From: a virus
Reading direction: 5' to 3' (one strand)
IMG/VR virus record: IMGVR_UViG_3300030085_004299
Coordinates: 1 to 50,739 of that record
Length of the DNA stretch: 50,739 bases
The notes below the pieces were generated by a model. It saw nothing but the letters and a program-made list of their open reading frames with translations. It did not search any database and was not told the origin of the DNA. A program made the translations under genes and the position numbers. Shown here one piece after another: positions 27,073 to 44,415 of this stretch. Positions within the stretch are counted from its first letter, which is position 1. Every line of letters begins with the position of its first letter.

Positions 27073-28632
27073 TTAAAATTGCAAGATAACTTTAACGTCT
27101 TCTTTCTGTGAAGTGGATCTAGTAACTGAAGGTCTATTGTCAATATAGATGATGTCACCAGAGTATTTTTCAGACTCTGGATTAGAAACTCCGTTAAAGA
27201 ATTCCTGACCCAAGTAGTAGGTACGACTATTTATTGTAGTTGAGATACCTGAAAAATTCTGGTGAATATTTAATGTATTACCAGATGTGGGAGTGATAGA
27301 AACAGAACCACCAGATGTAGGACTTGCAGTAAATCTCAGTTGTTCAAACCCATAAGTAGGATTTACATTCTTTGTTCCGTCCGTATTAAAACCTGCAGTT
27401 CTTCTATCTTGCCAATATTTTAAAATTCCCGTTTGTTGATCATAAGAAACCACTCTACCAATAGCAGTAGAACCTAGACCTACGGTTTGAGTAACAAAAC
27501 TATCTGCTGTAAATATAGCTTCACTATAACCAGTACCTACTAATTTCAATGCATATACTGCACTTGCTTTATCTAATGTCAGATTCGTTGTAGAACCAAA
27601 GTTTTTTGGATTTTTGACAATACCAACTTGAGCAAATTGATTACCAGTAATAAAATCTGGATTTTGAGTGTCATTCTCAAATCTTGCATAAGATAAGACG
27701 TTGTATGCACCTAATTCACGGTAAATATCTGCACCATGACCACCATTAGGTGGAATAATCACGTCAAATACTGGTGCAACTGTTCCAGTTGGAATTCCAC
27801 CACCCTTAAGATCGAGTGTACCAAATGTATATCCACTTCCACCTTTAGAGACAGTTACTGATTCTATCTTCGAGTCATTATTAATAACAACAGTTGCTTC
27901 ACCACCTCTACCATCACCAAGAATCGGAACTCTAGTATAGGTTGTGTTGGCTGGTCCAATATTAACACCACGATTTCTAATCGTAACAATCTTCAATTGA
28001 CCACCAGAAGCCGCATTTTCTCTTACGGATTGATAAGATGAATTTGTGTCCCAGTCAGTTGGTATTGCAATATAATTTGTTGAATCAAATTTAATAATTT
28101 GATTTGGTTTGATGGTGTAAAGATATTTCCAGATATATCCATCACCACTACTTCCAGCTTCTCTTGGTTCTAAATCAGTGAAATTAGGTTCGTCAAGAGA
28201 AGGACCACCCCTAAAACTGTTTTCTGGATTTGCATTATTATATAAACAAATATAAACCTTATACTCACTATTCATAACATAGAAATTTGAGTCATAGATA
28301 TCAAATGACCCAGATGGTTGAGATGGATTATCTCTATCAATATCATTTCTCCACATATCATATGTGGTACCAGACTGCCAAGAAATCTTTCTTATAACTT
28401 GACTTACATCCCCACTATTGATTTTTTTAAGAGCAATCATAGTGTCCCAATAATAATTGGAATCATCTAAACTGTCTTTTGGTGCAGGTGGAGTTGAATT
28501 CCAATCACTCTGAAACTCAGGAGCATCTGGAAGACCAATCCATGCATAATATGAATTTGAAGAATCTTGTACAGAATCGACAAAATTCTTCGCATTCAAA
28601 ATACGCAGTTGATCAGTAATTATCGCAGCCAT
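27073..28632 (-). CDS. gp8: Baseplate wedge protein gp8
   Basis: Wedge subunit that, with gp6, gp7 and gp25, builds the six baseplate arms. Family marks are the N-terminus (ITDQLRILNAKNFVDSVQDS and YYAWIGLPDAPEF), NSEYKVYICLYNN, and SSGDGYIWKYLYTIKPNQII. It is 519 residues against 334 in T4. The extra includes a GxGY repeat (KGGSGYTFGTLDLKGG, about 265-280), the type seen in gp14 and the gp7-position giant. It ends DVKVILQF. It starts after a CTAAATA late word (28653-28659), and its stop lies 6 bases before the DUF4815-type ATG, whose ribosome site AAGAGAT overlaps that gap. Confidence 0.92.
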   Translation of the reverse strand: MAAIITDQLRILNAKNFVDSVQDSSNSYYAWIGLPDAPEFQSDWNSTPPAPKDSLDDSNYYWDTMIALKKINSGDVSQVIRKISWQSGTTYDMWRNDIDRDNPSQPSGSFDIYDSNFYVMNSEYKVYICLYNNANPENSFRGGPSLDEPNFTDLEPREAGSSGDGYIWKYLYTIKPNQIIKFDSTNYIAIPTDWDTNSSYQSVRENAASGGQLKIVTIRNRGVNIGPANTTYTRVPILGDGRGGEATVVINNDSKIESVTVSKGGSGYTFGTLDLKGGGIPTGTVAPVFDVIIPPNGGHGADIYRELGAYNVLSYARFENDTQNPDFITGNQFAQVGIVKNPKNFGSTTNLTLDKASAVYALKLVGTGYSEAIFTADSFVTQTVGLGSTAIGRVVSYDQQTGILKYWQDRRTAGFNTDGTKNVNPTYGFEQLRFTASPTSGGSVSITPTSGNTLNIHQNFSGISTTINSRTYYLGQEFFNGVSNPESEKYSGDIIYIDNRPSVTRSTSQKEDVKVILQF

Positions 28633-28667: not shown

Positions 28668-31600
28668 TTAGACTGTGAACAGGTTTGGATATACCACAAC
28701 CGTTCCACCCATTCCAGAGTGAGATGTACACTGATAGTACAGTGTGTTTGGAGCGTCAAAAGGAACTGCAAAAGTCACAATTCCACTAGATGCTCCATTG
28801 TTAGATACGCCAGTGTTGTATGCAGAACCACCATTACTTTGTCTAATTTGGAATGGGTGAGCACCCATATTATTGACAAATTCGTATGATTGACCTCTTG
28901 CAAGGTATATAACTGGATCGTTAGTATTACTTAATCCACCTGGACCTGTGAATGTATAGTGATTAGAACCACTCGCACCTAGAGTCCATCTAGATGTTAT
29001 TGCATTTGATAAATCACCTTCAAGTGCCTTGGCAGTTACAATACCAGTGGAGATAACACCTCCTCTGGAAATTGTAGTTGCGGCACCAGTGGGGCTAATT
29101 CCCTCTACTCTGATAGATGTATTAGCTCTTACTTTTGTTGATACGAGTGTATCACCACTATAAGTTAAATTAGCAGAGTCAGCTAATACCCCCCCTGTAC
29201 TTGAGAATACTATGGCACCAGATCCCAATAAAGAGGATATGGTTGTAACACCTGAAACAACCAAATCATCAATTTTAGCACCACCAACAACATCAAGTTG
29301 TGCTGTTGGATTAGTAGTTCCTACTCCAACATTACCTAAAGTATGAATACCAGCATCAGTTTGGACCCAATACGAATCTGAACCACCACCTGATGATGTA
29401 GATGTAATTATAAAATTACCTGTAGGACTTTCTAGGATGGTAATATTTGATCCTGCCTCAATACCCGTTACAATACCAGTCAAGTTAGAACCATCACCAT
29501 AATAAGTTACGATACCACTTGTAGCAGTTACAATACCAGATACTGCTACTCCAATACTAGTGGTTTCAAATTTCTTTACATCATCGTAGTAAAGTTCTAC
29601 GGCACCATCTGCAATTCCTCTGATAATATCATCATATCCATCACCCTCTTTTTGAACAACAAATCCACTGGCACCGCGAATATAAGAATACCCAGTGGTA
29701 TTAGTCCAGAAGGCAGAACTACCATTGTGATCAAGTTTTACTTGATTGGAAGAACCAATATAGAGATCTGATGTATTATTTCCCGCATTTAAATAAAGAG
29801 AAGATTGAACATTAACAGCGCTATTGAACGTAGAAATACCAGTTACGTTTATACCATCAGAACTTACAACGACTCCAGACCTTGCTGTTACAATACCGAT
29901 TGAATCAACATTTGTTACGTCATCATAAGTCAGTGTTCCTGCAATTGAAACATTCCCACTAAAAGTAGAATTACCAGTAAATGTAGAAATACCACCTACT
30001 TCTAAGGTACCATTTAGAATGCGTACTGCACCATTACCACCATTACCATATTTTACACTGAATAACTCAGTACTTCCACTTATACTAGGGAAGTAAGATT
30101 TGACAATAAGACCACCATGTGCTGCACCTGGAACACCACCATAAATGGTTGTATCATTGGACCCAGAAATCCAAAGAGTTCCACTACCTCCACGTCTTAT
30201 ATTTGCAGGTGTATTTTCTAATCTTAAATCATTAGAGAGAAATGCATTACCTGTATAAAGCGATGCCGATGTCAATATACCAGAGACATTTAACTGTTCA
30301 GCAGTTAAGTTGGTTGTAGAAGTAACCCCAAGTGTAGAGACACCAGAGACGTTTAAGTTATCTAACTCAGTGTGACCATCGATATCAACATCACCGTTAA
30401 AGTCGGCAGTACCAGTAAATGTAGAAACACCTGATACATTTACGTTATCTAACTCAGTGTGACCATCAACATCTATATTACCAGTGAATCCAGAAGTACC
30501 AGAGACAACTAATGTTTGAGTCTCAATAGTTCCAAAGATAGTAATACCAGCGCCAGTTGTTGATAATTTCTTATTATCATTATGATAAAGATCTACAGAT
30601 CCATCTTCGGTAAAGGTTGCGTATGATTTATCTCCCTCTACATTTGTCCAGGAATTTGTACCATCACCTCTAATGGTAATTCCACTTGTTCTACCAATAA
30701 TTTCAAAACTTGCGTTGTCTTGGAATATTTCGGAGGTTGAGAATTTAACTCTGTTATTATTTGTACCAGTGCTTTCTCCCAGTACAATATTTGTATCTGA
30801 TATATTGACTTGACCCGAGAAAGTTGAAACACCAACAAAGGTTGATACTCCAGACACATTAAGATTATCTAATTCGGTGTGTCCATCTACATCAATATCC
30901 CCATTGAAATCAGCAGCACCAACAAAGGTAGAAACACCTGATACGTATAATTGTTCGGCAGTTAAGTTGGTTGTAGAAGTAACCCCAAGTGTAGAGACAC
31001 CAGAAACAACTAAAGTATCAGCACTAATATTTGCAGTCGTTATACCACTACCACCAGATTGTGCGACCCAATCATAATCAGATCCAGTCCAACTTAAGAC
31101 TTCACCAGAATTAGCACTTGAAATGTTTAGATGAGTATCTACACTAGAGTCTGAATATCCACCAGCAAGACCATTACCATAATCAGAAATCATGGAAGTG
31201 GTAATACCACTAAATGTCGTTGCAGTGATAACACCACTGACATTAACATTGTCTAACTCAGTATGACCATCAATATCAACATCGCCATTGAAGTCGGCAG
31301 CACCAGTAAAGGTTGATACTCCAGAGACATTTAATGTATCAGTTTCAGTATGCCCTGTTACATCGATACCAGAAGCAGTGGTTTCAAATTTCTTCGCAGT
31401 ATCAGTATGATAGATTCCTACACCACCAGTACCAGTAATATTAACTCGACCACCAACATTTGTCTCTAATTGAATATCTCCATCACTACCACCACTATTA
31501 TTAGCTGCTATTTTTACATTTTCAGCACCATTAGTTGAAATAACTAATTCACTACCACTACTTCGTATCTGACGATTAGGGTTACCAAAACTAATACTTG

Positions 31601-32237
31601 TATTACCTGCTAGAGTTACATTATTAAAGGTAGAGACACCAGAAACAACTAAAGTATCAGCACTAATATTTGCAGTGGCGAGACCACTTGAAGCAGCAGT
31701 GATACGACCTTGAGCATCAACAGTAATATCTGCTGCAGTGTAAGAACCTGCAGAAACTGTTGTATCTGTAAGAGTGATTGTTGTAACACCAGCATTTACA
31801 GTGGTGGCATCAAATTGAGCACCAAAATTTAATGTTCCTGCGGTACCAACTGAACTACCCTCTTTTTGAACTACAACACCAGCACCAACACCAGTAAGTC
31901 CAGTTAAATTGGAACCATCACCATAATAGGTTCCACCTGTAACTACACCGAGTGTTGATATACCACTAACCTGAAGATTACGAGAAATAACAACATCAGT
32001 AGTGGCGATTGATACTGGAGTCGTTGCCGATATGGTGACATTACCAGTTGATGTATTGATCGCAACATTATCACCTGCAGTGATGACTGTTACAACACCG
32101 ACCGCCAAGGTGGAACCATCACCAATAAGATTATATAACTCCGAAAAGTTACTATTGATTTTAACTCCACCCCCAATTAAAGTATCACCTGTTCCATCAT
32201 TTGGGGTAGTTCCAGTGTTAATACCTTGGTATGCCAT
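28668..32237 (-). CDS. Fibre-like protein with C-terminal cupredoxin-like domain
   Basis: A 1189-residue fibre or spike-like protein between the gp7-position gene and gp8. The N-terminus (GINTGTTPNDGTGDTLIGGG, then KINSNFSELYNLIG) is a recurring attachment domain of marine phage fibres. The shaft has many copies of LNVSGVSTFTG and GDVDIDGHTELDN, with YYGDGSNLTG linkers. The last ~108 residues (from about 1082) form a cupredoxin-like domain. Candidate copper ligands are H1127 (GAHPF), C1170, H1173 and M1176 in CTSHSGM, the C-x2-H-x2-M spacing of amicyanin-type sites. Copper binding and its use are unproven. A late word (32264-32270) lies upstream. Confidence 0.88.
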   Translation of the reverse strand: MAYQGINTGTTPNDGTGDTLIGGGVKINSNFSELYNLIGDGSTLAVGVVTVITAGDNVAINTSTGNVTISATTPVSIATTDVVISRNLQVSGISTLGVVTGGTYYGDGSNLTGLTGVGAGVVVQKEGSSVGTAGTLNFGAQFDATTVNAGVTTITLTDTTVSAGSYTAADITVDAQGRITAASSGLATANISADTLVVSGVSTFNNVTLAGNTSISFGNPNRQIRSSGSELVISTNGAENVKIAANNSGGSDGDIQLETNVGGRVNITGTGGVGIYHTDTAKKFETTASGIDVTGHTETDTLNVSGVSTFTGAADFNGDVDIDGHTELDNVNVSGVITATTFSGITTSMISDYGNGLAGGYSDSSVDTHLNISSANSGEVLSWTGSDYDWVAQSGGSGITTANISADTLVVSGVSTLGVTSTTNLTAEQLYVSGVSTFVGAADFNGDIDVDGHTELDNLNVSGVSTFVGVSTFSGQVNISDTNIVLGESTGTNNNRVKFSTSEIFQDNASFEIIGRTSGITIRGDGTNSWTNVEGDKSYATFTEDGSVDLYHNDNKKLSTTGAGITIFGTIETQTLVVSGTSGFTGNIDVDGHTELDNVNVSGVSTFTGTADFNGDVDIDGHTELDNLNVSGVSTLGVTSTTNLTAEQLNVSGILTSASLYTGNAFLSNDLRLENTPANIRRGGSGTLWISGSNDTTIYGGVPGAAHGGLIVKSYFPSISGSTELFSVKYGNGGNGAVRILNGTLEVGGISTFTGNSTFSGNVSIAGTLTYDDVTNVDSIGIVTARSGVVVSSDGINVTGISTFNSAVNVQSSLYLNAGNNTSDLYIGSSNQVKLDHNGSSAFWTNTTGYSYIRGASGFVVQKEGDGYDDIIRGIADGAVELYYDDVKKFETTSIGVAVSGIVTATSGIVTYYGDGSNLTGIVTGIEAGSNITILESPTGNFIITSTSSGGGSDSYWVQTDAGIHTLGNVGVGTTNPTAQLDVVGGAKIDDLVVSGVTTISSLLGSGAIVFSSTGGVLADSANLTYSGDTLVSTKVRANTSIRVEGISPTGAATTISRGGVISTGIVTAKALEGDLSNAITSRWTLGASGSNHYTFTGPGGLSNTNDPVIYLARGQSYEFVNNMGAHPFQIRQSNGGSAYNTGVSNNGASSGIVTFAVPFDAPNTLYYQCTSHSGMGGTVVVYPNLFTV

Positions 32238-32271: not shown

Positions 32272-35200
32272 TTAAGTGAGATAGTTCACAAATTTAAGTG
32301 GTCGGAACCTTTGAATCAGTGGAGATGTGGAGAGTCCAGAATATCCATTAGGTGTAAAGGTAAGTGCATTTGATGCAGATCTATTCTTGAACTTAATTCT
32401 ACCCCATGAGTATTCTCCGAGTGATTGAACTCTTTCAAAACCAGAACCAGTAACAGCAAATCCTACATTTTGTACTTCAACTCTTCTAATTGCAGTTGTA
32501 CCAAGACCAACCGTTGTCAAATCGGTTACAAAGTCATAAGCCTTATATGCACGATAGATTCCATCACTTGTATTTGTGGATAATCCGAAGTGGGAAAGAT
32601 TTACAACAAACAAATCACCTTCCTGAACAGTACTCAGAGTTATCGCTGTACCCACAATATTTGGATCTCTCATGTAAGAATCCTGAGGAATATAAAGTTC
32701 AAGAGTTCCTAATGCACCTGCTGACTGAGCAACACCAACTATAATACCCTGATCACCGAAATAAGAATCAACACCAACCTCTTCTCTTCTTGATTTTGGA
32801 ACTTCAACTAGAATCTGTGGAGGATTAGCCGCAGAATATCCGGCACCAGCATTGGTAATTGTAAATCCAGTAATTGTTCCTCCAGCACTCACTGAAGCTG
32901 TGGCAGTTGCTCTTGTTCCACCTACAATATCAACAGGTTGTGATATGGAAACAGATGGTGAACCAGAATAACCAGATCCTACATTACTTATTGTAAATCC
33001 TGTAACTGTTCCAGCAGAACTTACAGATACCGTAGCAACTGCACCCACAATTGGTGATTGATCAATAATTGTTACTCTATCAGTGTAATCAAGAAGTGAA
33101 GTTTCATTCGTTGAGTTGAAGAATGGTCTTGTAGTATCAACATATGCATCTGTAGTATTCACACCAACATATTGAGTAAGGTATGCTGCAGGATAAATTG
33201 ATGGTTCGTATAAAATTCTATCTTTCGTTACGACCTCACCATTGATAGTGATATCATCAGTTTGTTTACACCATGTCAATGGTCTAACCAATCCTTTATT
33301 AGTTGTGATACCAGGTCCATCATAAGCAAAAGTTCTTACGGTATCCAGAGTTGTGATTCCAGTCACAATTCTTTCTTCCTGAAGTAATCCGAATGTTTGA
33401 CCCTTACTAGAATCATTTTTCAACTGTAAAGAGTCACCAATTTTGATGGTTTCGAGAATATCAACAAATACAACGTCAACACCAGGAGTACCCTTATAGA
33501 ACATAATTTTTGCAGTATCTCCTTTCTTAGGTGCTTCTGTAAATTCAATAATAGTACCACCAGTGAACTTGTATGAAGAATTAGGTACCTGAAGAATATC
33601 ATTAATGGTGATAATTAAACATTGTGCGATATTGATATTGGACCCATCAGCAGTTTCGATGGCAAACAGGTTATTATCAATCTTTAATTGGAACCTCGTC
33701 TCAAAACCATCAAATTGATCATCGATTTGATCGAATACATCAATTTCACCGATTGTGAATCCATTAAACGTGTCACGATATACGTCGGAAACAGTAAGAA
33801 TAAATGGATCATAAGAACTGGTTGTCTGGATTCCAGTAGTTCCTCCGATGGAAAGTCTAAGTTCCTCACTTTCTTTATATCCAAATCCACCACTTACAAT
33901 TTCAAAATTAATTATACTGGATCCTTGACCAACCATTACATCAACTTTTGCTCCTGTTCCTACTCCAGTTGTTCCATCTGCATATACAAGTGGGATACTA
34001 GAATATGGAAGTGGGGCATCAATCACGACTAATGGTGGATTATTTTCTTCAAGATTTGATCCAAAGAATGATGTATTAATTGCTACAACTTCACCATTTT
34101 GTACAGTTGCAGTACCAATATTGACCACTGTAGAGAAACCAATATTAGTTGTAATAATTCCAACTTGAACTGTTTGTACTCCTACTCTGTAACCAGAACC
34201 AGGATTACCAATAACAACTGATGTTATTGTACCTGCCGAAGATACAAAACATGATGCACCTGCGGAGATGAGTGGTTGGAATCCAAAACCAGGTGTAGAT
34301 CCCACTGATATAATTGTACCACCCCTTGGAATAGATGATTTATTTGGATCATCCTCAGAAGAAACACTGTCACCTAAGTAAGTAATACTTGTTACACCTG
34401 CATGTTCAATAAGTGTGAAGTCACCAGTTGTTCCTTGAGCACCTTGTGGTTCTTGAAGAATGTTTGAATTTAGAATGATAGCTTGATTAGTTGCAAATCC
34501 AGTAATATTATTTCCATTTTGTAAAAGGGTGAAATTTTTGGTTTGACCATTGAAATCTTTTCGAATATTATCGAAAGTATAATTACTACTATATGTACTA
34601 TTATCATCATTTGCAACACCACTTCTCATGAATGTTCTACCTTGGAATGTAGAATGAGTCGTGATACCTGACCAGTCTAAATTATCGGGACCAGCTGTGT
34701 CTGTACCAATAGGAATACCTCCATAAGGTGCTGATGCGAAATGAACTGTATTATCAACAATATTGTAGTTTCCGCCAAGAAGTTGAACAGTAGATCCATT
34801 GGCGTGAGTACCAATACCCGTTCCCATCTGTGCTCTAATAACCTTGAAGTTATTGGTTTTACCAACACCAATGTTCTGAATTAACATAATTTCGTCATCA
34901 ATCTTGATGAAATCATTAGATTTAAATGATCCTATTCCTGTTACTTCGAAATTGAGGTCAAATATAACCTCTTGATCAAGAGTGGTAGAAATATTTTCTT
35001 CAGTTATTGGTGCTTGAATCATATTATCAATTGCCATCAATGCTCTAGCATTTTGGTTTGTTGATGTGAATTTATGGAACGTACCAATACCAACTCCAGA
35101 TAAAATAATAGTATCTGGGTTTGGTTTTAATGCAGCTGCTGCGTTTGTTGCAAGACCAACTGAAACATCAGATAATTTGACAGCATAGACTTCTGTAGGA

Positions 35201-38200
35201 AGTTTGTCAGTCGAAATACCACCAATCGATTGAGTTGGAATACTAATAGCATTAGTAGATTCTTGTAACGAATTTTCATAACTATAAACAATCTTTTCAC
35301 CAGTTACGAAATAATGATCAGGTAATTTAATAGAATTATTTGTCAGATCTACTACAGAAGGATCATTTCCAAGGAAAGTTTTTTCAAAGATTGGTAAACC
35401 ATTATGATTGAGAGCAAAAGCTTTTTTAGTATCAAGTTTTGTACCAGTGTAAGTACCATGATTTGAAAATAGAATATTATTATCAAGATCACTAATAGAT
35501 GTGATGCCGGTAATATTATTGTAATTCTTAAGACCGATACCAAAAGTTCTTACATCAACAGCAATATTTGCGTTTGGTGTAAAGTTCAAACTTACTGCAC
35601 TTCCTGTCTTCGTCATTCCAACAGTACCAAGACCCACTCCAGATACAGTATCAATATTGGCATACTTATTAATATTTTTATTATTTGCATCAAGAACATG
35701 GCATTCAAACAGTTCATATTCATTGTTTGTTGTATCATGAACGGTGACCATGAAATACTCACCAGCAAATGGATCATTGTAAGAAGCAATTTCAACTGCA
35801 GTTGGTGAACCAGATGATGAAATAGACTTATGATATGATGAAAGGTTGGTAACAATCATTCCAGTGGTGTCAACACCAGTATTTGTTCCATGAGTTTCAA
35901 TTGATAAAATATTCGCCGTTACTGCTGTTCCCACAGTTGGATGAATTTTGATTATAATGTCACTACCACTTATGTCTGCGGTGTAAGTTCCAAATCCCAA
36001 TGATGGACCTTCGGTTGTATCAACATCACCATATTGGAGAAGTTGTACATTAGTTCCATTGTGAAGAACGTTAAGTTCATTATAGAAATAGTTGTCATTT
36101 CCATCTTCTAGTTGTATATGAAGTTTTGCAGATCTAGTTGCAGTCGGAATCTGTAAGATAGTGGTTGCAGTTCCAGCAGAAACAGCAACAGAAGATGATG
36201 CGATCGAAACAACACTACCAATTGAAGTTGAACCAATACCAGTTACATTTTCTAAACCAGCAAAATTAAAGTAGGAAATTTCATAATTATTGAATTCAAA
36301 CAGATTTGGATACCACTGAAGTCCGAACTGACTTGTACCAATACTGATATAATCAAATGATCCAAGCGGCATATTTGTATCAAGTGTACCGTATTGATTC
36401 AAATAACCCTCTGAACCATTTTGAAGAAGAGTTACAATACCAAATTGTTTTCTATCATTTAACTCGGTATCTTGAACAAGAGTGAAAAACTTATTCCATG
36501 CATATTTGTTATCGAAGAAACTTACGATAGAATAGGGAGTGTCTCTTGGATCACTATTAAACTGATCACTAAAGTCATCAATCTTAAGAACTCTATTTCC
36601 TCTTGATTCAAAGTAATCGGAAAGTTTTTTACTTTCAAATACAATCTCGTGGGAAATGATTCTTCCATCAGAAACATCTATAGTTCTTTCTGTAGCACCA
36701 TCATAATCGGGGAAGCAATAGAGAGACTCTTCACCAATCAGATCAACAACAGTCGAAATTTCAATGTCTGCAGTTGTGACAATACCTACTGCATTGTTGT
36801 CAATAACCAAATCTGCAAACTTTTGGAAACCTGCAGTATGATTTAGTGAACTTACTGTATCATCCCAAGTTTCAAGAGCAACTCTCGATTTAAGGGAGTA
36901 TGAGAAGTTTTGATAATATTCATTATTAGGAATAACTTGAAGATTGTCATTCAAGAAACCTGAATTGTTTTGCCAACCATCAATTACTGTTGCACCAACT
37001 CCTAATTCAATTGTAGAATTAAACTTAAAGGTATCAAGGACGTTACATTTCACACCAGATGATGTAGACTCAACAATTGATCCAATTGGGAAATCATCCT
37101 CAGCTGATACAAACAGATATCTACTTACATTATCAAATCTCTCGACAATACCAGTTCTTTCACCATTAACAACTTTCTCACCACTCAACAATTCTTTTGT
37201 TACAATAATTGGATTAAATGTCGGGAAAAAGGTTTTGGGAGTAACTGATCCAGATATAATGGTAGTTACATTTCCAGGACGTTCTTCTGGTGCAAGATCA
37301 TCGGTAAGATCATACTCTACATAAGAACCACTACCACCCAGATTACTATCAAGTCCCGTGACTTTAAAAAGTTTGTAACCATAGTCTTCGGAGTTGTAAC
37401 CCGTTCCTGTTGTTCCAAAACCGACAGCGACATTTTCTACGAGAATTTCTTCACCAATCTTAAATGGCCAATCTTTAGCATCACTGAATTGTTTAGTGAA
37501 ACTTAAACGAACAATTTTGGTCGTATTATTATATGTGATTGAACTAATACTAAAGCCGTTTGTATTTTGAAGAGGAATAATTTGCGGTTCAACATTATTT
37601 AAAGATTGTGTGTTTCTAATGATATCCAGGAAATTATCATCAGCTCTATTGAATTTCAAGTCAACATCAGTAATCTGTTTTCCCGTCAAACCATCGAGAA
37701 CAACTAATTCTGGAGGTTGACTATAATTTACGCCAGCTGATGTAATACCAATTGATTCGAATGAACCAAGAGGGTCTACTTTAAGAACCTGTGGAAGATT
37801 TCCTACAGCATTAAGAGTACTGTCTGAAGGAAAACCAAATCCAATGTAGTTTATTTTCTGCTTAAGAACTGAACCAATAGTCGAACTTCTTGGTTCTAAT
37901 ATTGCACCAGATCCCTTTACACTTCTTACAGATGTAAATCCAGGAAGAACTTTGTATCCACTACCACTATTAACAACTTTTACTGTCTGTATGGGTCCTT
38001 CAGCAGTCGAAGATGTAGTGTAATATTTCATCGTTGTATTTGTCGAATCGTAAGAAGTTACAGTATCGACATTGTATGGGATATTATATTCATAAGTATC
38101 TGATGTTACTCCAGAGATTGTGTAGACACCATCAAATTTATTAGGTACAATTTCTATACTATTATTTTTATCAACATCAGTGTCCTCAAATATTCTTAAT

Positions 38201-41200
38201 TTGACAGGAGGTATGATATTGAGATTATCTGGTTCAAAAGCATAATAAAGATTTCTTGGTAGATTATCACTTACCTTCAAAGTAAGATTTGCAGATGCAT
38301 CAATACCAATTTTTCCATTGCTTGTAACTTCAAAAGTTCTTCCTGTTTGTGAAGTAAAGAACTCATTTATTTTTTGACTGTCACTAAAAATTGACATTTT
38401 AAATGCAGAGTAAGTAATACCCTTATCCACAAATGATAAAGAAGAATCGGAAAGATCAAATTTAATGTCCTGATTTTCCTGAACTTCAATCCTTGGATTT
38501 ATTTTTGAAATACTTCCTGTCGAAGTTGATTTTATATTAACAAATTCTGGATTTTCATCAAGTAGCTGATACTTCTCATTTACAAGTTTGATGGTGTTTT
38601 TATCAAAGACGTACACATAATACATTCCAGATGCAGTTAAACCCTCCGATGGGGATGTAGAAGTATAGATGATTTTTTCACCCGTTCTATACTTGTTCTC
38701 AGGAACAATTAATGTGTTATTCGTCGTGTTTATACCAGTTGGTTCAATTGTATCTTTATCAAATACGATTCTTCTGTTATAGTCATCATACTCTACTTTT
38801 AAAGTTGTAGTTGTAGTTGAATTAACGTCAATAGAAACTCCATCACCTCTCTTCAACCCATGAGTTTCTCCAGTAGAAACTGTCACAACATGTTGAGATA
38901 TTCTACCAGAAAGAACCTGTGGAAGATCTGTTACGAGACTATGAGTAGCTCCAAGACCTGTCGAATTGGTGAAATATAATAACCCGCCTTTAGATGAATC
39001 AACTCCAACATAAAGTCCAGTTACTGTACTTATAGCAACTCTGTCTGTAGCCAAACCAATAATATCTTTTGTGATCGGAGCAGCAAAAAGATTCCTTGTT
39101 TCGGTAAGATTATAAATTGGGCTATTTTCAACACCACTCCAAACCTCTAACGATGTTCCATCAATTGCATAATACTTAAGTGGATCATTTAGAGAAAGCC
39201 CGTGATTGGGATACAATAATTGTTGCTGTTTGAGTTCGACTTGCGTTCTTCCTACACCAGGGTTTGAGAATGTAATAGTTGTTGCAGTGCCAGTTGTTTC
39301 AGTACCAAGACCTACCGATTCATTCGGCATAAAGTAAAGAGTTTTATTTTTAATGAGAGGTTTGTTGGTATTGATTCCAACTGTAGTAAATCTAACTCTT
39401 CTGGGATCATCTCTTACAATAGTCCCAGCGGAATGAACAACTTGAAGTGTATTGTTGTGACCTCTCTGTACTCTAATTCTTCCAGATTGTTTATCCAAAT
39501 TCAAGACTTTAAATTGTTCAGAATCAATTCTTAAAATATCATTGGGTTCAATTGTCCTAGGATTAATAATACCATTAAGATAAATGAATGTGACAATACC
39601 TGTTGCTGTACCTGTTGCAATACCAACTGATGTATACCATCTCTCACTCGTTATACCCACACTATAGGGTCCTGTAAACCCTTTATAGAACTCTGACAGT
39701 CCATCGATAAAGATTATATCACCTGTCAATAAGCCATGTGGTGTTGATGTTATTCCAACAAATTTATTTTGAGCTACGTCTCCAGTAAACTCACAATTTT
39801 CAAATACTGTTGTTGCAAGACTTACCTGATTAATCTCCTTTCCTTTAATTGCAGAAACTTTCCATTTTACTCCTCTTCCATCAGTATTAGATGAATCAAA
39901 AGTAACTTTGTCATCTACCTTATAATCATCACCAGGATCTTTGATTTCAAGAATATCAACACCACCAAAAGTTGTTGAAGTTATATCAATTGATGAATTT
40001 CTGATTAAATCTGAATTAAAAATATAGTCGTAACCGTTATTTCCACCATTAGTGAAGTAGAAGTATGTATTTCTCAACCACTTATTTTTTACAATGTCGT
40101 ATTCAGTTTGATTTGATGATGCTTTAAAATTAAAATCGTTAGGTAAAGATTTAAATTTATTACCAATTACATATGGGAACTGTGGAAGTCTAAAGTTGTT
40201 AAATGGTCCAGATGATTCAATATCATCACTTATGGTGCAGAAATATGCATATACACCATTGGGGTAATCTGGTGTTACACAGAATCTACCATTATATTCG
40301 TCAAGGTCACCGTCACCTACATACTCATAATCATTTACAAAAAATCCATTACTAAACGCAGAGTAAGATGGTCTGTTTTTTGAAGTGATCTTCAGTTTAT
40401 AACCACTCCTCATCCTTCTGATGGATCCAGAACCGTCTATCTTATCGAACGAATATGGACCATAAATGGGATTCCCGTCATATGCCCATCCAATAATAGG
40501 AGAGTGGAATCCACTTGATGTCTCCTCACCACCTGAATCGAGTTGTAAGTCAAAAAGACCATATTGAATATTATCATCGTCAAATCCATTAATTGAATTT
40601 GAAATTGATCTAAGGGGTCTAGGTGCATAGAAAGAAGCAAACTGTAATGATGTATTTGAAATATTATCTACTATGACAGTATCATCGTCACCCAAATTTT
40701 GGAAGTTCTTTTCGAACAGATTTACATTCCATGATCTGATATTAGTTTGAACTCTTCCACCACTACCGGCAGGAATTACATCAATGGATGTTTTCCCTTG
40801 AGTATACCCCACTCCACTCTTTTGGATAATTACACTATCAATTTGACCATCTTTAATAATTGGAACAAGAATTGCAAAATCACCCTTGTCATCTAAACTC
40901 CTTATAATCAAATCTGGTGGTGAATTATATCCACTACCAGGAGAAAGTATAATTACCTCTGTAATTTTTCCATTATTAACAATTGGAGTCAGTCTCGCAC
41001 CTGTTCCAGATTCAAAAGTGACCTCAGGTTGTCTGTTGAAATCAATGATCGTTGATGCACCATACCCAACACCACCAGAAACATTATCGATTGAATTTAT
41101 AGAACCTCTAAAGACTGGTTGTAATTTTGCTTTGTATTCACGAATATTACCAATAAATGGGTAGTCACTGATAAGCCAATGAGTACCTTCACTTATAGTA

Positions 41201-44200
41201 ACCATGTATTGCATATCTTGGAAGCATGGAGTATGTCCTGAGTCACTTCCTTCAGGAGATTCAAGTAATGCTTCTGTCTCTGTCCAAGCAAGAACTCTTT
41301 CTGGTGTGGTGATGTTCTCTTCAACTGGAGATTCAATAATGAATAATTCCTCAAAATCTTCAACAAATGTTTTATCGTAAGATGCTGGAGTACCTTCTAC
41401 ATCAACTGTGATTGGAGGATAGTTAAAGGAACCTCTTCCTGCATTTACAAAATCAACTATTATATTTCTATCGAAATAATATGATGATTCTAAATCACCA
41501 GTTCCCGCTTCTGATAATGAAAATTCATTTTCATTTATTCTATGAACATAGTAATCTTTTCTTTCAGATAAACCTTTTACTGAAGGAAGAGAATCATCCT
41601 TCGTATATCTTACAATTTCCTTATCTCTATAACCATGGTTAATAATTTCAACCCTATTCGAAACAGTATTTACACCAACAGTTGGAATAGTTCTTTTTTT
41701 ACTTTCATATCCGACTCCAGGATTTGTAATAACAACACTAGAGACAACCGATTTTAGTTCAGATGCTGTGAGATATTGGATACCATCTCCATATTCGTCA
41801 AAAGTAATTGTATTGATGCCTGCTATTGCATCAGCTGATGTTGGGTGAAGTGTGAGTTTTTTATGAGTTGTGACAAACACATAATATTCAGAATCAGTGG
41901 TCAGTCCAGTTATTGCCTTTGTTCCACCTGTTTTATAAATGACACTTTCGCCATCCATAAATTTATGATCATCATCAAAAACAAATTCATTTGTTGTCAG
42001 ATTTAAGTTAGAAGAAGAATTTGCATTGAATGAATTTTCATGAACTATGGAAATCATTCTAGGTTCTGCTGAAGCACCAAATCCATTTCCACCCTTTATT
42101 GTGATGGTAGGTCGTGTATAATAACCCAATCCACTATCAGTGACATCAAGTCTAACCAAATTACCAATAATATTAGCGGTAGCAGTTGCACCAGTTCCTA
42201 CTTCATCAGAAATTTTAACAATAGGTGGATTAATAATATCGTAATCTTGTCCACCTCTCGTTACGGTAAATCCTGTAATGTCACCATAATAAACACTATT
42301 TGTGGATTTGTAGTTTAAAAGTTCAACACCGTTGTTCCAAATACCAATAGAACCAGCCTTTGTAAGTTGATCATCAGCTCTATTGTTTATGGGTTCAAGT
42401 ATTTGTCTATAAATCCCTTGAGGTTTGATATTTTTATTATAAAATTCAAGTAATGTCAGAGAAGCATTTGTGACAGAACCATTGAAAGTTACATATGTTT
42501 CTCTAAAAAGATCAGCTTTACTTCTTGCAAAACTAATTTGACTTTCATTTATTCTTTTTACAAAATATGATGCAGTCGGGACATCCTCGAATCCATTACC
42601 ATTCGATTGAAAATATACAGAGTCTCCAGTGTAGAAACCATGGTCAGGAAGAGAAGTGGGATTAGTTGGGAGAGTTAAAACCTTTGTACCTTGTAATGAA
42701 GTTGTAAATGTTACACTATGATTGTAAGTATTACTTAAAACATCATCATATCTGGGTATTGAGTTTGATGCGACCATCACATCACCATTAAATTTGGCAT
42801 ACGTATTCTGTACGTTTGCAACAAATTTTTGTATGTAAGGGAATTTTGTAGAATTTCCCTTAAGAAGTTGATTTTCAATGAAAAATGTTCCATCAAGAGG
42901 AATTTGTTCAGAAAATCTTACATTTACGGTATCATTTGAAATTACCCTAATAACTGAACCCAATAAAGAAACTGATTTAGTTTCATTTTCATATCTAAGT
43001 TGATAGCCCTCATTGTAGAAAGGAGGAGTATAGAACTTAAATTGATAAACGAATGCACTCCCATCAATTACTCTAGTTTCAGCTACTTTGTATTTGGGTT
43101 TGATGTTTAAAAACCAATTATTGCTTTTCTTACCAGATGCCTCAAGGCCTAATGATTTGATCTGAATCGTATCATTAGGTCTAAAATAATTAGTTTTATC
43201 GTTCTGAATAAAATCTTTTAATGTAGAGGTGAAACGAACTTGAATTTCAGTGTCTGTATTAATCCCTACATATGCATATGAATAATCGTCAAGTTTTACG
43301 TCCTTTGTCTTATCTAAGTCTTTTACGACTCCCTCACAATTGAAAAACTGGTTTGAAGTCTTTCCAGTGTATGCAATCGATACTTCTTGACCATCTTCAT
43401 CTTCAATTGTTATTTTTCCAAACTCTGGAAAATCAATAGTTGAATCAACATTGATTATAGAAGCACCAACACTCACATTCTCAAGAAGTTTGGTTAATGG
43501 ATTTGGTTTGAATTCACCAACTATTGAACCAGTTATACTGGTGTTCTCAATACCTTTATCAATACTGACTTGATAGTATTGATAATCCGTGTATGGGATT
43601 TGTTGTACGTTTGTGACAGAACCCTTAGCACCAGTTCTTTTTTGTGTAATTGTAAGATTTTTTAAATCTAAAGGATCACCCTGAACTTTTTCTACAACAT
43701 AGTCTTGGGTAACTCTATAATCTGCATTGGATGGAGTTAAGAGAAGATTAGAGGGTTTGATAATCTCAACATCTTCACCATATAATGCTCTGAATAAAAT
43801 TTCATAAGACTGATCAGTTCCCTTTGAGGAATAAAAACTGTCAGCATTAAATACAAAGTTCTTCTTATTTAAATCACTATAAAAAGTTCTATCATCAAAA
43901 CCAGGAGTAACCTGTTTTTTAAGTTTATTAAAGAACTGTTTTAGAAACAGAATATTTAAATTATTAACTTTTGAACCAGTTGAATGTTTTTTACTTTCGG
44001 TTTGAGTAAATGTCAATTCATCAGGATTACCTGTTGAAATATAAGTCGTTATACCACTAAATCCTCTTTTACATCCAGTGAATGAATTTGTGGTGGTTCC
44101 AGAATAATATACAATCTCATCATCAATTTGAATAATACCATTTTTATCAGGAAAACCAATAGTTGATGAAACAGGAATTTCCGATGATAATAACGTGATA

Positions 44201-44415
44201 TCAGATGTTAAGTTTGTATTATCTACAATATCAAATAATTCTTCTACTTTCACATATTGGTCGATATTATTTAAAATATCAACAGGTCCACTTTGAGACT
44301 CTTGAGAAATATAATATTGCTCTAAAAAATCTGTAAGAAGAGGAAAATCTTCTCTAACGTATCTTGGAAGTTGGCTTGCGACAATTTCCTGGAATTTTAC
44401 TCTATCTACTGCCAT
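32272..44415 (-). CDS. Giant baseplate wedge protein at the gp7 position, with embedded YHYH-like domain
   Basis: A 4047-residue virion protein between gp6 and gp8, the place of wedge gp7 (1032 residues in T4). The N-terminus (RVKFQEIVASQLPRYVREDF, then PLLTDFLEQYYISQE) is the conserved start of these cyanophage giants. The body is beta-rich with at least ten GxGY..P.(V/I).I repeats (for example NVGSGYSGSPSVSI, DSGLGYYTRPTITI) and three IDDE-type modules (about residues 80-135, 1620-1665 and 3160-3210). A YHYH-like domain lies at about 1305-1395 (GWAYDGNPIYGPYSF ... GRFCVTPDYPNGVYAYF). Its ATG is 10 bases after the gp6 stop. Gp7 identity rests on gene order; the giant size suggests absorbed peripheral wedge roles. 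Confidence 0.85.
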   Translation of the reverse strand: MAVDRVKFQEIVASQLPRYVREDFPLLTDFLEQYYISQESQSGPVDILNNIDQYVKVEELFDIVDNTNLTSDITLLSSEIPVSSTIGFPDKNGIIQIDDEIVYYSGTTTNSFTGCKRGFSGITTYISTGNPDELTFTQTESKKHSTGSKVNNLNILFLKQFFNKLKKQVTPGFDDRTFYSDLNKKNFVFNADSFYSSKGTDQSYEILFRALYGEDVEIIKPSNLLLTPSNADYRVTQDYVVEKVQGDPLDLKNLTITQKRTGAKGSVTNVQQIPYTDYQYYQVSIDKGIENTSITGSIVGEFKPNPLTKLLENVSVGASIINVDSTIDFPEFGKITIEDEDGQEVSIAYTGKTSNQFFNCEGVVKDLDKTKDVKLDDYSYAYVGINTDTEIQVRFTSTLKDFIQNDKTNYFRPNDTIQIKSLGLEASGKKSNNWFLNIKPKYKVAETRVIDGSAFVYQFKFYTPPFYNEGYQLRYENETKSVSLLGSVIRVISNDTVNVRFSEQIPLDGTFFIENQLLKGNSTKFPYIQKFVANVQNTYAKFNGDVMVASNSIPRYDDVLSNTYNHSVTFTTSLQGTKVLTLPTNPTSLPDHGFYTGDSVYFQSNGNGFEDVPTASYFVKRINESQISFARSKADLFRETYVTFNGSVTNASLTLLEFYNKNIKPQGIYRQILEPINNRADDQLTKAGSIGIWNNGVELLNYKSTNSVYYGDITGFTVTRGGQDYDIINPPIVKISDEVGTGATATANIIGNLVRLDVTDSGLGYYTRPTITIKGGNGFGASAEPRMISIVHENSFNANSSSNLNLTTNEFVFDDDHKFMDGESVIYKTGGTKAITGLTTDSEYYVFVTTHKKLTLHPTSADAIAGINTITFDEYGDGIQYLTASELKSVVSSVVITNPGVGYESKKRTIPTVGVNTVSNRVEIINHGYRDKEIVRYTKDDSLPSVKGLSERKDYYVHRINENEFSLSEAGTGDLESSYYFDRNIIVDFVNAGRGSFNYPPITVDVEGTPASYDKTFVEDFEELFIIESPVEENITTPERVLAWTETEALLESPEGSDSGHTPCFQDMQYMVTISEGTHWLISDYPFIGNIREYKAKLQPVFRGSINSIDNVSGGVGYGASTIIDFNRQPEVTFESGTGARLTPIVNNGKITEVIILSPGSGYNSPPDLIIRSLDDKGDFAILVPIIKDGQIDSVIIQKSGVGYTQGKTSIDVIPAGSGGRVQTNIRSWNVNLFEKNFQNLGDDDTVIVDNISNTSLQFASFYAPRPLRSISNSINGFDDDNIQYGLFDLQLDSGGEETSSGFHSPIIGWAYDGNPIYGPYSFDKIDGSGSIRRMRSGYKLKITSKNRPSYSAFSNGFFVNDYEYVGDGDLDEYNGRFCVTPDYPNGVYAYFCTISDDIESSGPFNNFRLPQFPYVIGNKFKSLPNDFNFKASSNQTEYDIVKNKWLRNTYFYFTNGGNNGYDYIFNSDLIRNSSIDITSTTFGGVDILEIKDPGDDYKVDDKVTFDSSNTDGRGVKWKVSAIKGKEINQVSLATTVFENCEFTGDVAQNKFVGITSTPHGLLTGDIIFIDGLSEFYKGFTGPYSVGITSERWYTSVGIATGTATGIVTFIYLNGIINPRTIEPNDILRIDSEQFKVLNLDKQSGRIRVQRGHNNTLQVVHSAGTIVRDDPRRVRFTTVGINTNKPLIKNKTLYFMPNESVGLGTETTGTATTITFSNPGVGRTQVELKQQQLLYPNHGLSLNDPLKYYAIDGTSLEVWSGVENSPIYNLTETRNLFAAPITKDIIGLATDRVAISTVTGLYVGVDSSKGGLLYFTNSTGLGATHSLVTDLPQVLSGRISQHVVTVSTGETHGLKRGDGVSIDVNSTTTTTLKVEYDDYNRRIVFDKDTIEPTGINTTNNTLIVPENKYRTGEKIIYTSTSPSEGLTASGMYYVYVFDKNTIKLVNEKYQLLDENPEFVNIKSTSTGSISKINPRIEVQENQDIKFDLSDSSLSFVDKGITYSAFKMSIFSDSQKINEFFTSQTGRTFEVTSNGKIGIDASANLTLKVSDNLPRNLYYAFEPDNLNIIPPVKLRIFEDTDVDKNNSIEIVPNKFDGVYTISGVTSDTYEYNIPYNVDTVTSYDSTNTTMKYYTTSSTAEGPIQTVKVVNSGSGYKVLPGFTSVRSVKGSGAILEPRSSTIGSVLKQKINYIGFGFPSDSTLNAVGNLPQVLKVDPLGSFESIGITSAGVNYSQPPELVVLDGLTGKQITDVDLKFNRADDNFLDIIRNTQSLNNVEPQIIPLQNTNGFSISSITYNNTTKIVRLSFTKQFSDAKDWPFKIGEEILVENVAVGFGTTGTGYNSEDYGYKLFKVTGLDSNLGGSGSYVEYDLTDDLAPEERPGNVTTIISGSVTPKTFFPTFNPIIVTKELLSGEKVVNGERTGIVERFDNVSRYLFVSAEDDFPIGSIVESTSSGVKCNVLDTFKFNSTIELGVGATVIDGWQNNSGFLNDNLQVIPNNEYYQNFSYSLKSRVALETWDDTVSSLNHTAGFQKFADLVIDNNAVGIVTTADIEISTVVDLIGEESLYCFPDYDGATERTIDVSDGRIISHEIVFESKKLSDYFESRGNRVLKIDDFSDQFNSDPRDTPYSIVSFFDNKYAWNKFFTLVQDTELNDRKQFGIVTLLQNGSEGYLNQYGTLDTNMPLGSFDYISIGTSQFGLQWYPNLFEFNNYEISYFNFAGLENVTGIGSTSIGSVVSIASSSVAVSAGTATTILQIPTATRSAKLHIQLEDGNDNYFYNELNVLHNGTNVQLLQYGDVDTTEGPSLGFGTYTADISGSDIIIKIHPTVGTAVTANILSIETHGTNTGVDTTGMIVTNLSSYHKSISSSGSPTAVEIASYNDPFAGEYFMVTVHDTTNNEYELFECHVLDANNKNINKYANIDTVSGVGLGTVGMTKTGSAVSLNFTPNANIAVDVRTFGIGLKNYNNITGITSISDLDNNILFSNHGTYTGTKLDTKKAFALNHNGLPIFEKTFLGNDPSVVDLTNNSIKLPDHYFVTGEKIVYSYENSLQESTNAISIPTQSIGGISTDKLPTEVYAVKLSDVSVGLATNAAAALKPNPDTIILSGVGIGTFHKFTSTNQNARALMAIDNMIQAPITEENISTTLDQEVIFDLNFEVTGIGSFKSNDFIKIDDEIMLIQNIGVGKTNNFKVIRAQMGTGIGTHANGSTVQLLGGNYNIVDNTVHFASAPYGGIPIGTDTAGPDNLDWSGITTHSTFQGRTFMRSGVANDDNSTYSSNYTFDNIRKDFNGQTKNFTLLQNGNNITGFATNQAIILNSNILQEPQGAQGTTGDFTLIEHAGVTSITYLGDSVSSEDDPNKSSIPRGGTIISVGSTPGFGFQPLISAGASCFVSSAGTITSVVIGNPGSGYRVGVQTVQVGIITTNIGFSTVVNIGTATVQNGEVVAINTSFFGSNLEENNPPLVVIDAPLPYSSIPLVYADGTTGVGTGAKVDVMVGQGSSIINFEIVSGGFGYKESEELRLSIGGTTGIQTTSSYDPFILTVSDVYRDTFNGFTIGEIDVFDQIDDQFDGFETRFQLKIDNNLFAIETADGSNINIAQCLIITINDILQVPNSSYKFTGGTIIEFTEAPKKGDTAKIMFYKGTPGVDVVFVDILETIKIGDSLQLKNDSSKGQTFGLLQEERIVTGITTLDTVRTFAYDGPGITTNKGLVRPLTWCKQTDDITINGEVVTKDRILYEPSIYPAAYLTQYVGVNTTDAYVDTTRPFFNSTNETSLLDYTDRVTIIDQSPIVGAVATVSVSSAGTVTGFTISNVGSGYSGSPSVSISQPVDIVGGTRATATASVSAGGTITGFTITNAGAGYSAANPPQILVEVPKSRREEVGVDSYFGDQGIIVGVAQSAGALGTLELYIPQDSYMRDPNIVGTAITLSTVQEGDLFVVNLSHFGLSTNTSDGIYRAYKAYDFVTDLTTVGLGTTAIRRVEVQNVGFAVTGSGFERVQSLGEYSWGRIKFKNRSASNALTFTPNGYSGLSTSPLIQRFRPLKFVNYLT

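Follow-up and report, generated by a model that had tools for sequence, protein, structure and literature searches.

A predicted cupredoxin domain with conserved candidate copper ligands at the C-terminus of a cyanophage tail fiber protein

The fiber gene and its baseplate locus

The window analyzed here is a stretch of viral DNA of 50,739 nucleotides (IMG/VR record IMGVR_UViG_3300030085_004299, positions 1 to 50,739). Its minus strand carries a tail fiber gene flanked by genes encoding gp8 and a gp7-like baseplate protein of 4047 amino acids, and genes for gp6 and for a 2564-aa structural protein lie nearby (Table 1). Because the amino acid sequence of gp8 is ~90% identical to that of the myoviruses S-B43, S-B05, RN05-S, and RB11-B, all phages of Synechococcus MW02, we assign the window to a cyanomyovirus genome, of which it is a fragment.

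The fiber protein starts with a fiber-type N-terminus, continues in long VSGVSTFTG-type repeats, and ends in a domain of ~117 residues. The family at this end is PHROG 677, which is annotated as "baseplate wedge tail fiber protein connector". Membership is supported by E values of 7e-41 for the domain and 1.5e-38 for the whole protein, by homology over the C-terminal domain, and by the position of the gene at the gp7/gp8 baseplate locus.

A sequence-only reading of this DNA had proposed that the end of the fiber is a cupredoxin-like domain encoded at 28671-28994, with a candidate copper site made up of H1127 in the motif GAHPF and of C1170, H1173, and M1176 in the motif CTSHSGM. Both motifs and all four residues are found exactly at these positions in the open reading frame. 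The location of the domain likewise stands, whereas its extent had been drawn slightly too short, as the domain covers approximately residues 1073–1189. C1170 is the single Cys in the whole 1189-aa protein, ruling out a disulfide within the fiber protein. The fiber also contains no HxH motif, and an iron site of the T4 gp37 type was set aside on this ground.

Two further features were observed in the gp7-like protein. Residues 1304–1395 form a YHYH domain inserted in this virion protein. A separate segment gives a weak match, by a single method, to the HMM of the fiber-domain family and reads LYYAFEPDN where the fiber domain has YYQCTSH; it is possibly a metal-less paralogue in the adjacent gene.

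Table 1. Positions of the fiber gene, its C-terminal domain, the candidate ligand codons, and neighboring features in the window
Feature	Coordinates	Strand	Evidence
gp8 baseplate wedge, downstream neighbor	27073..28632	-	PF09215, PHROG 438
1189-aa tail fiber / gp9-locus protein, cupredoxin domain C-terminal	28668..32237	-	PHROG 677, 6942, 8745 and other tail families; gp7-like and gp8 flanks
C-terminal predicted cupredoxin domain, residues 1073-1189	28671..29021	-	AlphaFold2 model; Foldseek and VIA matches to type-1 Cu domains
M1176 codon, candidate axial Met	28710..28712	-	Invariance; plastocyanin alignment; Met to Ala in S-CAM3
H1173 codon, candidate second equatorial His	28719..28721	-	Invariance; plastocyanin alignment
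C1170 codon, candidate Cu thiolate	28728..28730	-	Invariance; sole Cys in fiber
Y1168 codon, invariant Tyr two residues N-terminal of Cys	28734..28736	-	67-member alignment
H1127 codon, candidate first equatorial His (GAHPF)	28857..28859	-	Invariant in 67 homologues; aligns with plastocyanin Cu-ligand His
gp7-like giant baseplate wedge protein, upstream neighbor	32272..44415	-	PHROG 2885, E about 0
Degenerate cupredoxin-like segment without ligands, inside gp7-like protein	38233..38511	-	Family HMM E 2.5e-4; weak, single method
YHYH domain in gp7-like protein	40231-40506	-	PF14240, E 3.7e-24

Fold of the domain and its relation to type-1 copper proteins

The last 117 residues of the fiber were modeled with AlphaFold2 using an alignment of 45 environmental homologues (IMG/VR loci together with the domain from the window), and the model contains no metal. 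It consists of nine strands, with a pLDDT of 92.5 and a pTM of 0.85. In the model, H1127 lies in a loop preceding a strand, C1170 at the end of a strand, and H1173 and M1176 in the loop that follows. This predicted layout is the canonical cupredoxin arrangement, and the topology and the alignment together suggest that the four candidate ligand side chains would be clustered in space.

Foldseek matches in the PDB were headed by HdNIR, rusticyanin, and plastocyanin. The best structural match was to residues 24–134 of 2dv6, the N-terminal cupredoxin domain of the Hyphomicrobium nitrite reductase (Foldseek E = 7e-6; VIA Z = 10.9, rmsd 2.5 Å over 95 residues). The AlphaFold2 prediction and the Foldseek and VIA matches agree with one another and with the fold first suggested from the sequence, and as modeled, the C-terminus of the fiber is a bona fide cupredoxin domain. 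The top structural matches also include residues 43–183 of small laccase, which we take to be cupredoxin domains without type-1 copper. Since some of the closest folds lack such a center, the fold by itself is no proof of copper.

We also modeled a distant branch of these domains (group D, typical of pelagiphage-like contigs). This second model has the same fold (pLDDT 90.2; 2dv6 at Z = 9.2), and hhalign identifies the two branches as homologous (99.6%, E = 1e-23). The distant branch was joined to the fiber-domain family because profile comparison and fold agree; when it was compared by itself with type-1 proteins at the sequence level, no match was obtained (best E = 0.21). Searches of BFVD returned A0A481Z6J5, A0A481YWX9, and other pithovirus-/marseillevirus-like "beta-sandwich proteins" (E about 1e-7), fold matches hinting at cupredoxin-like domains in giant viruses.

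A single-sequence search of the PDB recovered plastocyanin only at E = 0.18. With a profile of 67 homologues, plastocyanin 2plt ranked first (E = 2e-6), followed by CuNIR, amicyanin, and rusticyanin, and auracyanin was also matched. Among the alignments displayed, those with plastocyanin place the domain's His, Cys, His, and Met on all four copper-ligand positions, and the nitrite reductase alignments have the C-x2-H-x2-M loop in common with the fiber. The amicyanin-type spacing that had been read from the sequence is therefore present, and it maps onto the copper ligands of plastocyanin in the profile alignment.

The domain has both the fold of the type-1 cupredoxin superfamily and its ligand order, H...C-x2-H-x(n)-M. 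Scores against the individual family models are lower than their thresholds. The 117-aa domain scores 17.5 bits with Pfam PF00127 (Copper-bind), below the gathering value of 21.2, with the same region and ligands aligned. The plastocyanin model TIGR02656 gives 13.2 bits against an equivalog cut-off of 87.85, and its ligand loop is C-x2-H-x4-M, compared to C-x2-H-x2-M here. For the amicyanin model TIGR02657, the score is 18.5 bits against an equivalog cut-off of 110.2, and the ligand-loop region alone is aligned, with identical spacing. Falling short of all three cut-offs indicates a separate phage branch and not a captured plastocyanin. A captured petE gene is disfavored by the plastocyanin model score and the loop length, and the same two observations speak against the plastocyanin mimicry that had been raised as an option in the sequence-only reading.

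Conservation, joint loss, and exchange of the domain

The 67 homologues (25–75% identity) come from cyanomyoviruses, the cyanopodovirus P-SCSP2, pelagiphages, and Methylophilales phages. No column of their alignment is invariant other than H1127, Y1168, C1170, H1173, and M1176. The 100% ligand conservation in our first IMG/VR search is biased, as its peptide patterns included the ligand loop. Searches were repeated with the ligand-free N-terminal halves of four family members, and additionally with the half from a metal-less copy. The ligand-free searches found His, Cys, His, and Met kept in the full-length domains of all four sets, with the exception of one clade that has Y, D, T, and M at these positions and has lost H, C, and H together. 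Judged from these alignments, conservation of the candidate ligands is far beyond chance.

The joint behavior of H, C, and H extends to the whole family. All three residues are present in 264 of 314 non-redundant full-length domains and all three are absent from 49, leaving one mixed case. Met accompanies the triad in 263 of the 264 and is replaced by Ala in the remaining one (S-CAM3). A tree built without the ligand columns places three losses (in the FA[TVI]M fibers, in the YDTM clade, and in an additional copy encoded by the gene that follows gp9), in each of which H, C, and H disappear jointly, although the number of events is too low for significance in a sign test. Related fibers of S-B43, RN05-S, and RB11-B have a copy reading GGFPF...YYQASNVAGM, in which the first His is Phe, the Cys is Ala, and the second His is Val, and the remaining family signature of this copy is intact (E = 2e-23). 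Metal-less copies thus keep the signature of the fold, indicating that the ligands are not needed for folding, and persistence of the fold without the triad means that retention of the triad points to a metal site and not to structure. The pattern of joint loss would be hard to explain unless H, C, and H serve one purpose. Met is retained in most metal-less copies and is replaced once while H, C, and H remain, as would be expected if it were a weak axial ligand with an additional packing role in the core. The earlier argument that retention of all four candidate ligands opposes simple decay is borne out by their invariance in intact members and by the all-or-none triad; its suggestion of a dead cupredoxin fold does not suit this domain, though metal-less paralogues do occur in other fibers.

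Two variants deserve mention. In an environmental phage contig (locus L340), the ligand loop is CSTGGHAYM, with a two-residue insertion and with C, H, and M all retained. A widespread cyanophage fiber of 739–782 aa (L433, L434, L436, L438-L500) bears a metal-less cupredoxin, in which the first His is Phe, the Cys is Ala, and the second His is Val, Thr, or Ile; it could serve as a natural negative control for metal function.

Of 81 complete ORFs that were checked, 67, most of them related to this fiber gene, have the domain at the protein end; in the others it is N-terminal or internal, so "receptor-binding tip" does not describe its general role. Synechococcus MW02 is the isolation host of both RB11-B and RN05-S. 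The two phages share 99.3–99.7% DNA identity on either side of the fiber gene and the first ~270 residues of the fiber itself, after which the RB11-B protein ends in the cupredoxin domain and the RN05-S protein in a short unrelated tail. This difference indicates that the domain is swapped at this fiber, as attachment modules are. Since RN05-S grows on that strain although it lacks the tip, the domain is not essential in that background. Both phages have a metal-less copy on another fiber.

The intact domain also occurs in phages of SAR11 and Methylophilales, arguing against a purely photosynthetic role. A strict-pattern scan of 84,980 species genomes gave a single match, in a Bacteroidetes MAG (L106), and with this one bacterial locus a general bacterial origin was not traced. 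The protein encoded there is a collagen-like GPTGPT protein of 1011 residues that carries the domain with all ligands and has no evident phage context. In S-SCSM2R, a short structural-looking protein (L082 4815-5321, a 168-residue CDS) is annotated as PetE and is actually a domain of the fiber type, not a plastocyanin. Photosynthesis-gene surveys may miscount such domains.

Proposed role, alternatives, and comparison with known systems

The computations show that the domain is modeled as a cupredoxin with the expected ligand topology, that all four ligands are invariant, that H/C/H is kept or lost as a unit, and that fibers gain and lose the domain as a module. From the conservation pattern, we consider a functional metal site in the domain probable, with type-1 copper as its most likely form. 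Because related phages keep or lose the metal-binding residues all together, the virus probably bears a copper atom on its attachment apparatus. Our preferred explanation, which we hold to be reasonably likely, is that the His-Cys-His(-Met) site is under selection for metal binding, with type-1 copper the most likely form, and that the domain is an exchangeable module for attachment or joining that has a copper clamp.

A possible mechanism would begin with synthesis of the domain in the cytosol, where the metal site would be preformed but empty. Copper would be acquired as the cell lyses or later, either from the lysate or from seawater. Once bound, the metal would lock the GAHPF loop to the C-x2-H-x2-M loop, stiffening both at one end of the barrel. 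As in cupredoxins, by analogy, the result could be a rigid docking face that carries a solvent-exposed His ligand. Where the domain is C-terminal on a fiber, as it is here, this face would dock on a host surface structure, and where the domain is internal or N-terminal, on a neighboring fiber or baseplate protein. Overall, the domain would serve for attachment or joining, with copper as its built-in clamp, and not as an electron carrier for photosynthesis.

Free copper is scarce in the cytosol, where fibers assemble, and the all-or-none triad would suit any metal. These points favor an alternative in which the site holds Zn(II), Cu(I), or another soft metal as a structural staple, in a use other than that of type-1 copper and with no redox role, much like the HxH iron of T4 gp37. 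Iron bound by HxH motifs at the T4 fiber tip, and HxH sites proposed in marine phage fibers, provide a precedent (PMC11705849). However, H...C-x2-H-x2-M in a cupredoxin fold is specifically type-1 copper geometry, the axial Met is almost always retained, and the fiber is devoid of HxH motifs; we view a purely structural metal as unlikely. A dead cupredoxin fold used for protein–protein interactions only, its four residues retained by chance or for packing, finds some support in the three metal-less groups of paralogues, but it predicts one-by-one drift of the residues instead of the observed 264 domains with the whole triad, 49 with none of it, and one exception, and is strongly disfavored.

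The C-terminal, exposed position of the domain in most relatives of this gene and the metal limitation of the ocean would be compatible with a copper Trojan horse, in which a host surface protein for copper or metal uptake acts as the receptor for copper at the tip. Marine picocyanobacteria, however, often face copper toxicity and not copper limitation, the receptor has no known candidate, and some copies of the domain are internal or N-terminal instead of C-terminal. The analogous iron-based Ferrojan Horse has been proposed (PMC11705849), and its copper equivalent seems quite improbable to us. Given that electron transfer is the role of type-1 sites and that light-dependent adsorption has been reported for several marine cyanomyoviruses (PMC2984593), Cu(II)/Cu(I) at the tip might instead sense or exchange electrons at the host surface, for example aiding such adsorption. 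The intact domains in phages of the nonphotosynthetic SAR11 and Methylophilales and the lack of a known redox partner make such a device very improbable. The chance that the domain is a plastocyanin mimic or a captured host petE appears close to nil: plastocyanin is the best sequence-profile match and the S-SCSM2R copy is annotated PetE, but the score of 13.2 bits against 87.85 and the C-x2-H-x2-M loop do not fit, and genuine cyanophage petE forms a different gene cluster of its own (PMC3037559). Nothing in these data supports redox use, copper piracy, or light dependence, though each is possible.

A search of 5.39 million open papers found no description of a cupredoxin, blue copper, or plastocyanin-like domain on a phage fiber. 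Cyanophage proteomics and genome papers name petE and do not name this domain. A coevolution study of S-PM2d names baseplate and fiber mutations, none of which could be tied to this domain. The fold may already be flagged in databases beyond those searched, as one copy is automatically annotated PetE (S-SCSM2R). Metal on phage fibers is a known concept for iron in HxH motifs, and we found no report of a cupredoxin used on an attachment apparatus.

If the site is loaded, tailed phages would bear a blue-copper center on their attachment apparatus, cyanophage fibers of the gp9 locus would acquire testable chemistry (color, metal content, chelation), and a previously unexamined link between marine copper and adsorption would be suggested. 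RB11-B and RN05-S offer a natural experiment, with the same Synechococcus strain as host, >99% identity around the fiber, and a different tip. The presence or absence of H, C, and H as a set also provides a simple sequence rule by which copies in viral genomes can be sorted into metal-bearing and metal-free. A more far-reaching but doubtful possibility is that the fibers of marine phages, chiefly of the abundant cyanophages but also of SAR11 and Methylophilales phages, bear redox-active type-1 copper that is involved in attaching to the host, whether as a switch dependent on copper or gated by redox state or as a copper Trojan horse. If true, such fibers would be the copper equivalent of phage tails that bear iron, and viruses would carry a pool of copper ligand in the sea.

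With the type-1 cupredoxins (plastocyanin, amicyanin, rusticyanin, pseudoazurin, and the cupredoxin domain of the three-domain CuNIR 2dv6), the fiber domain has in common a predicted Greek-key β-sandwich and the order and topology of His, Cys, His, and Met. Those proteins are soluble or periplasmic electron carriers, whereas the fiber domain sits in the virion. In plastocyanin, the first His ligand is followed by Asn; the fiber domain has Pro in this place, and the second sphere therefore differs. The cyanophage "gp9 baseplate wedge tail fiber connector" proteins (PHROG 677, T4-GC 398) share the C-terminal domain (E = 7e-41) and the gp7-gp8/gp9 locus, while the protein in the window is distinguished by its length of 1189 aa with a long repeat shaft. 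The PHROG 677 annotation gives the position in the virion and mentions neither cupredoxin nor metal. Cyanophage PetE (T4-GC 225) is likewise a cupredoxin encoded by cyanophages, but it is the product of a free metabolic gene of 324–369 bp and not a virion domain (PMC3037559). Finally, the iron-bearing HxH tips of T4 gp37 and those proposed in marine phages (PMC11705849) resemble the fiber studied here in placing a metal site, predicted in our case, on a phage fiber. In those tips, HxH pairs recur along the fiber and hold iron, whereas here each domain has one H/C/H/M site in a predicted cupredoxin fold.
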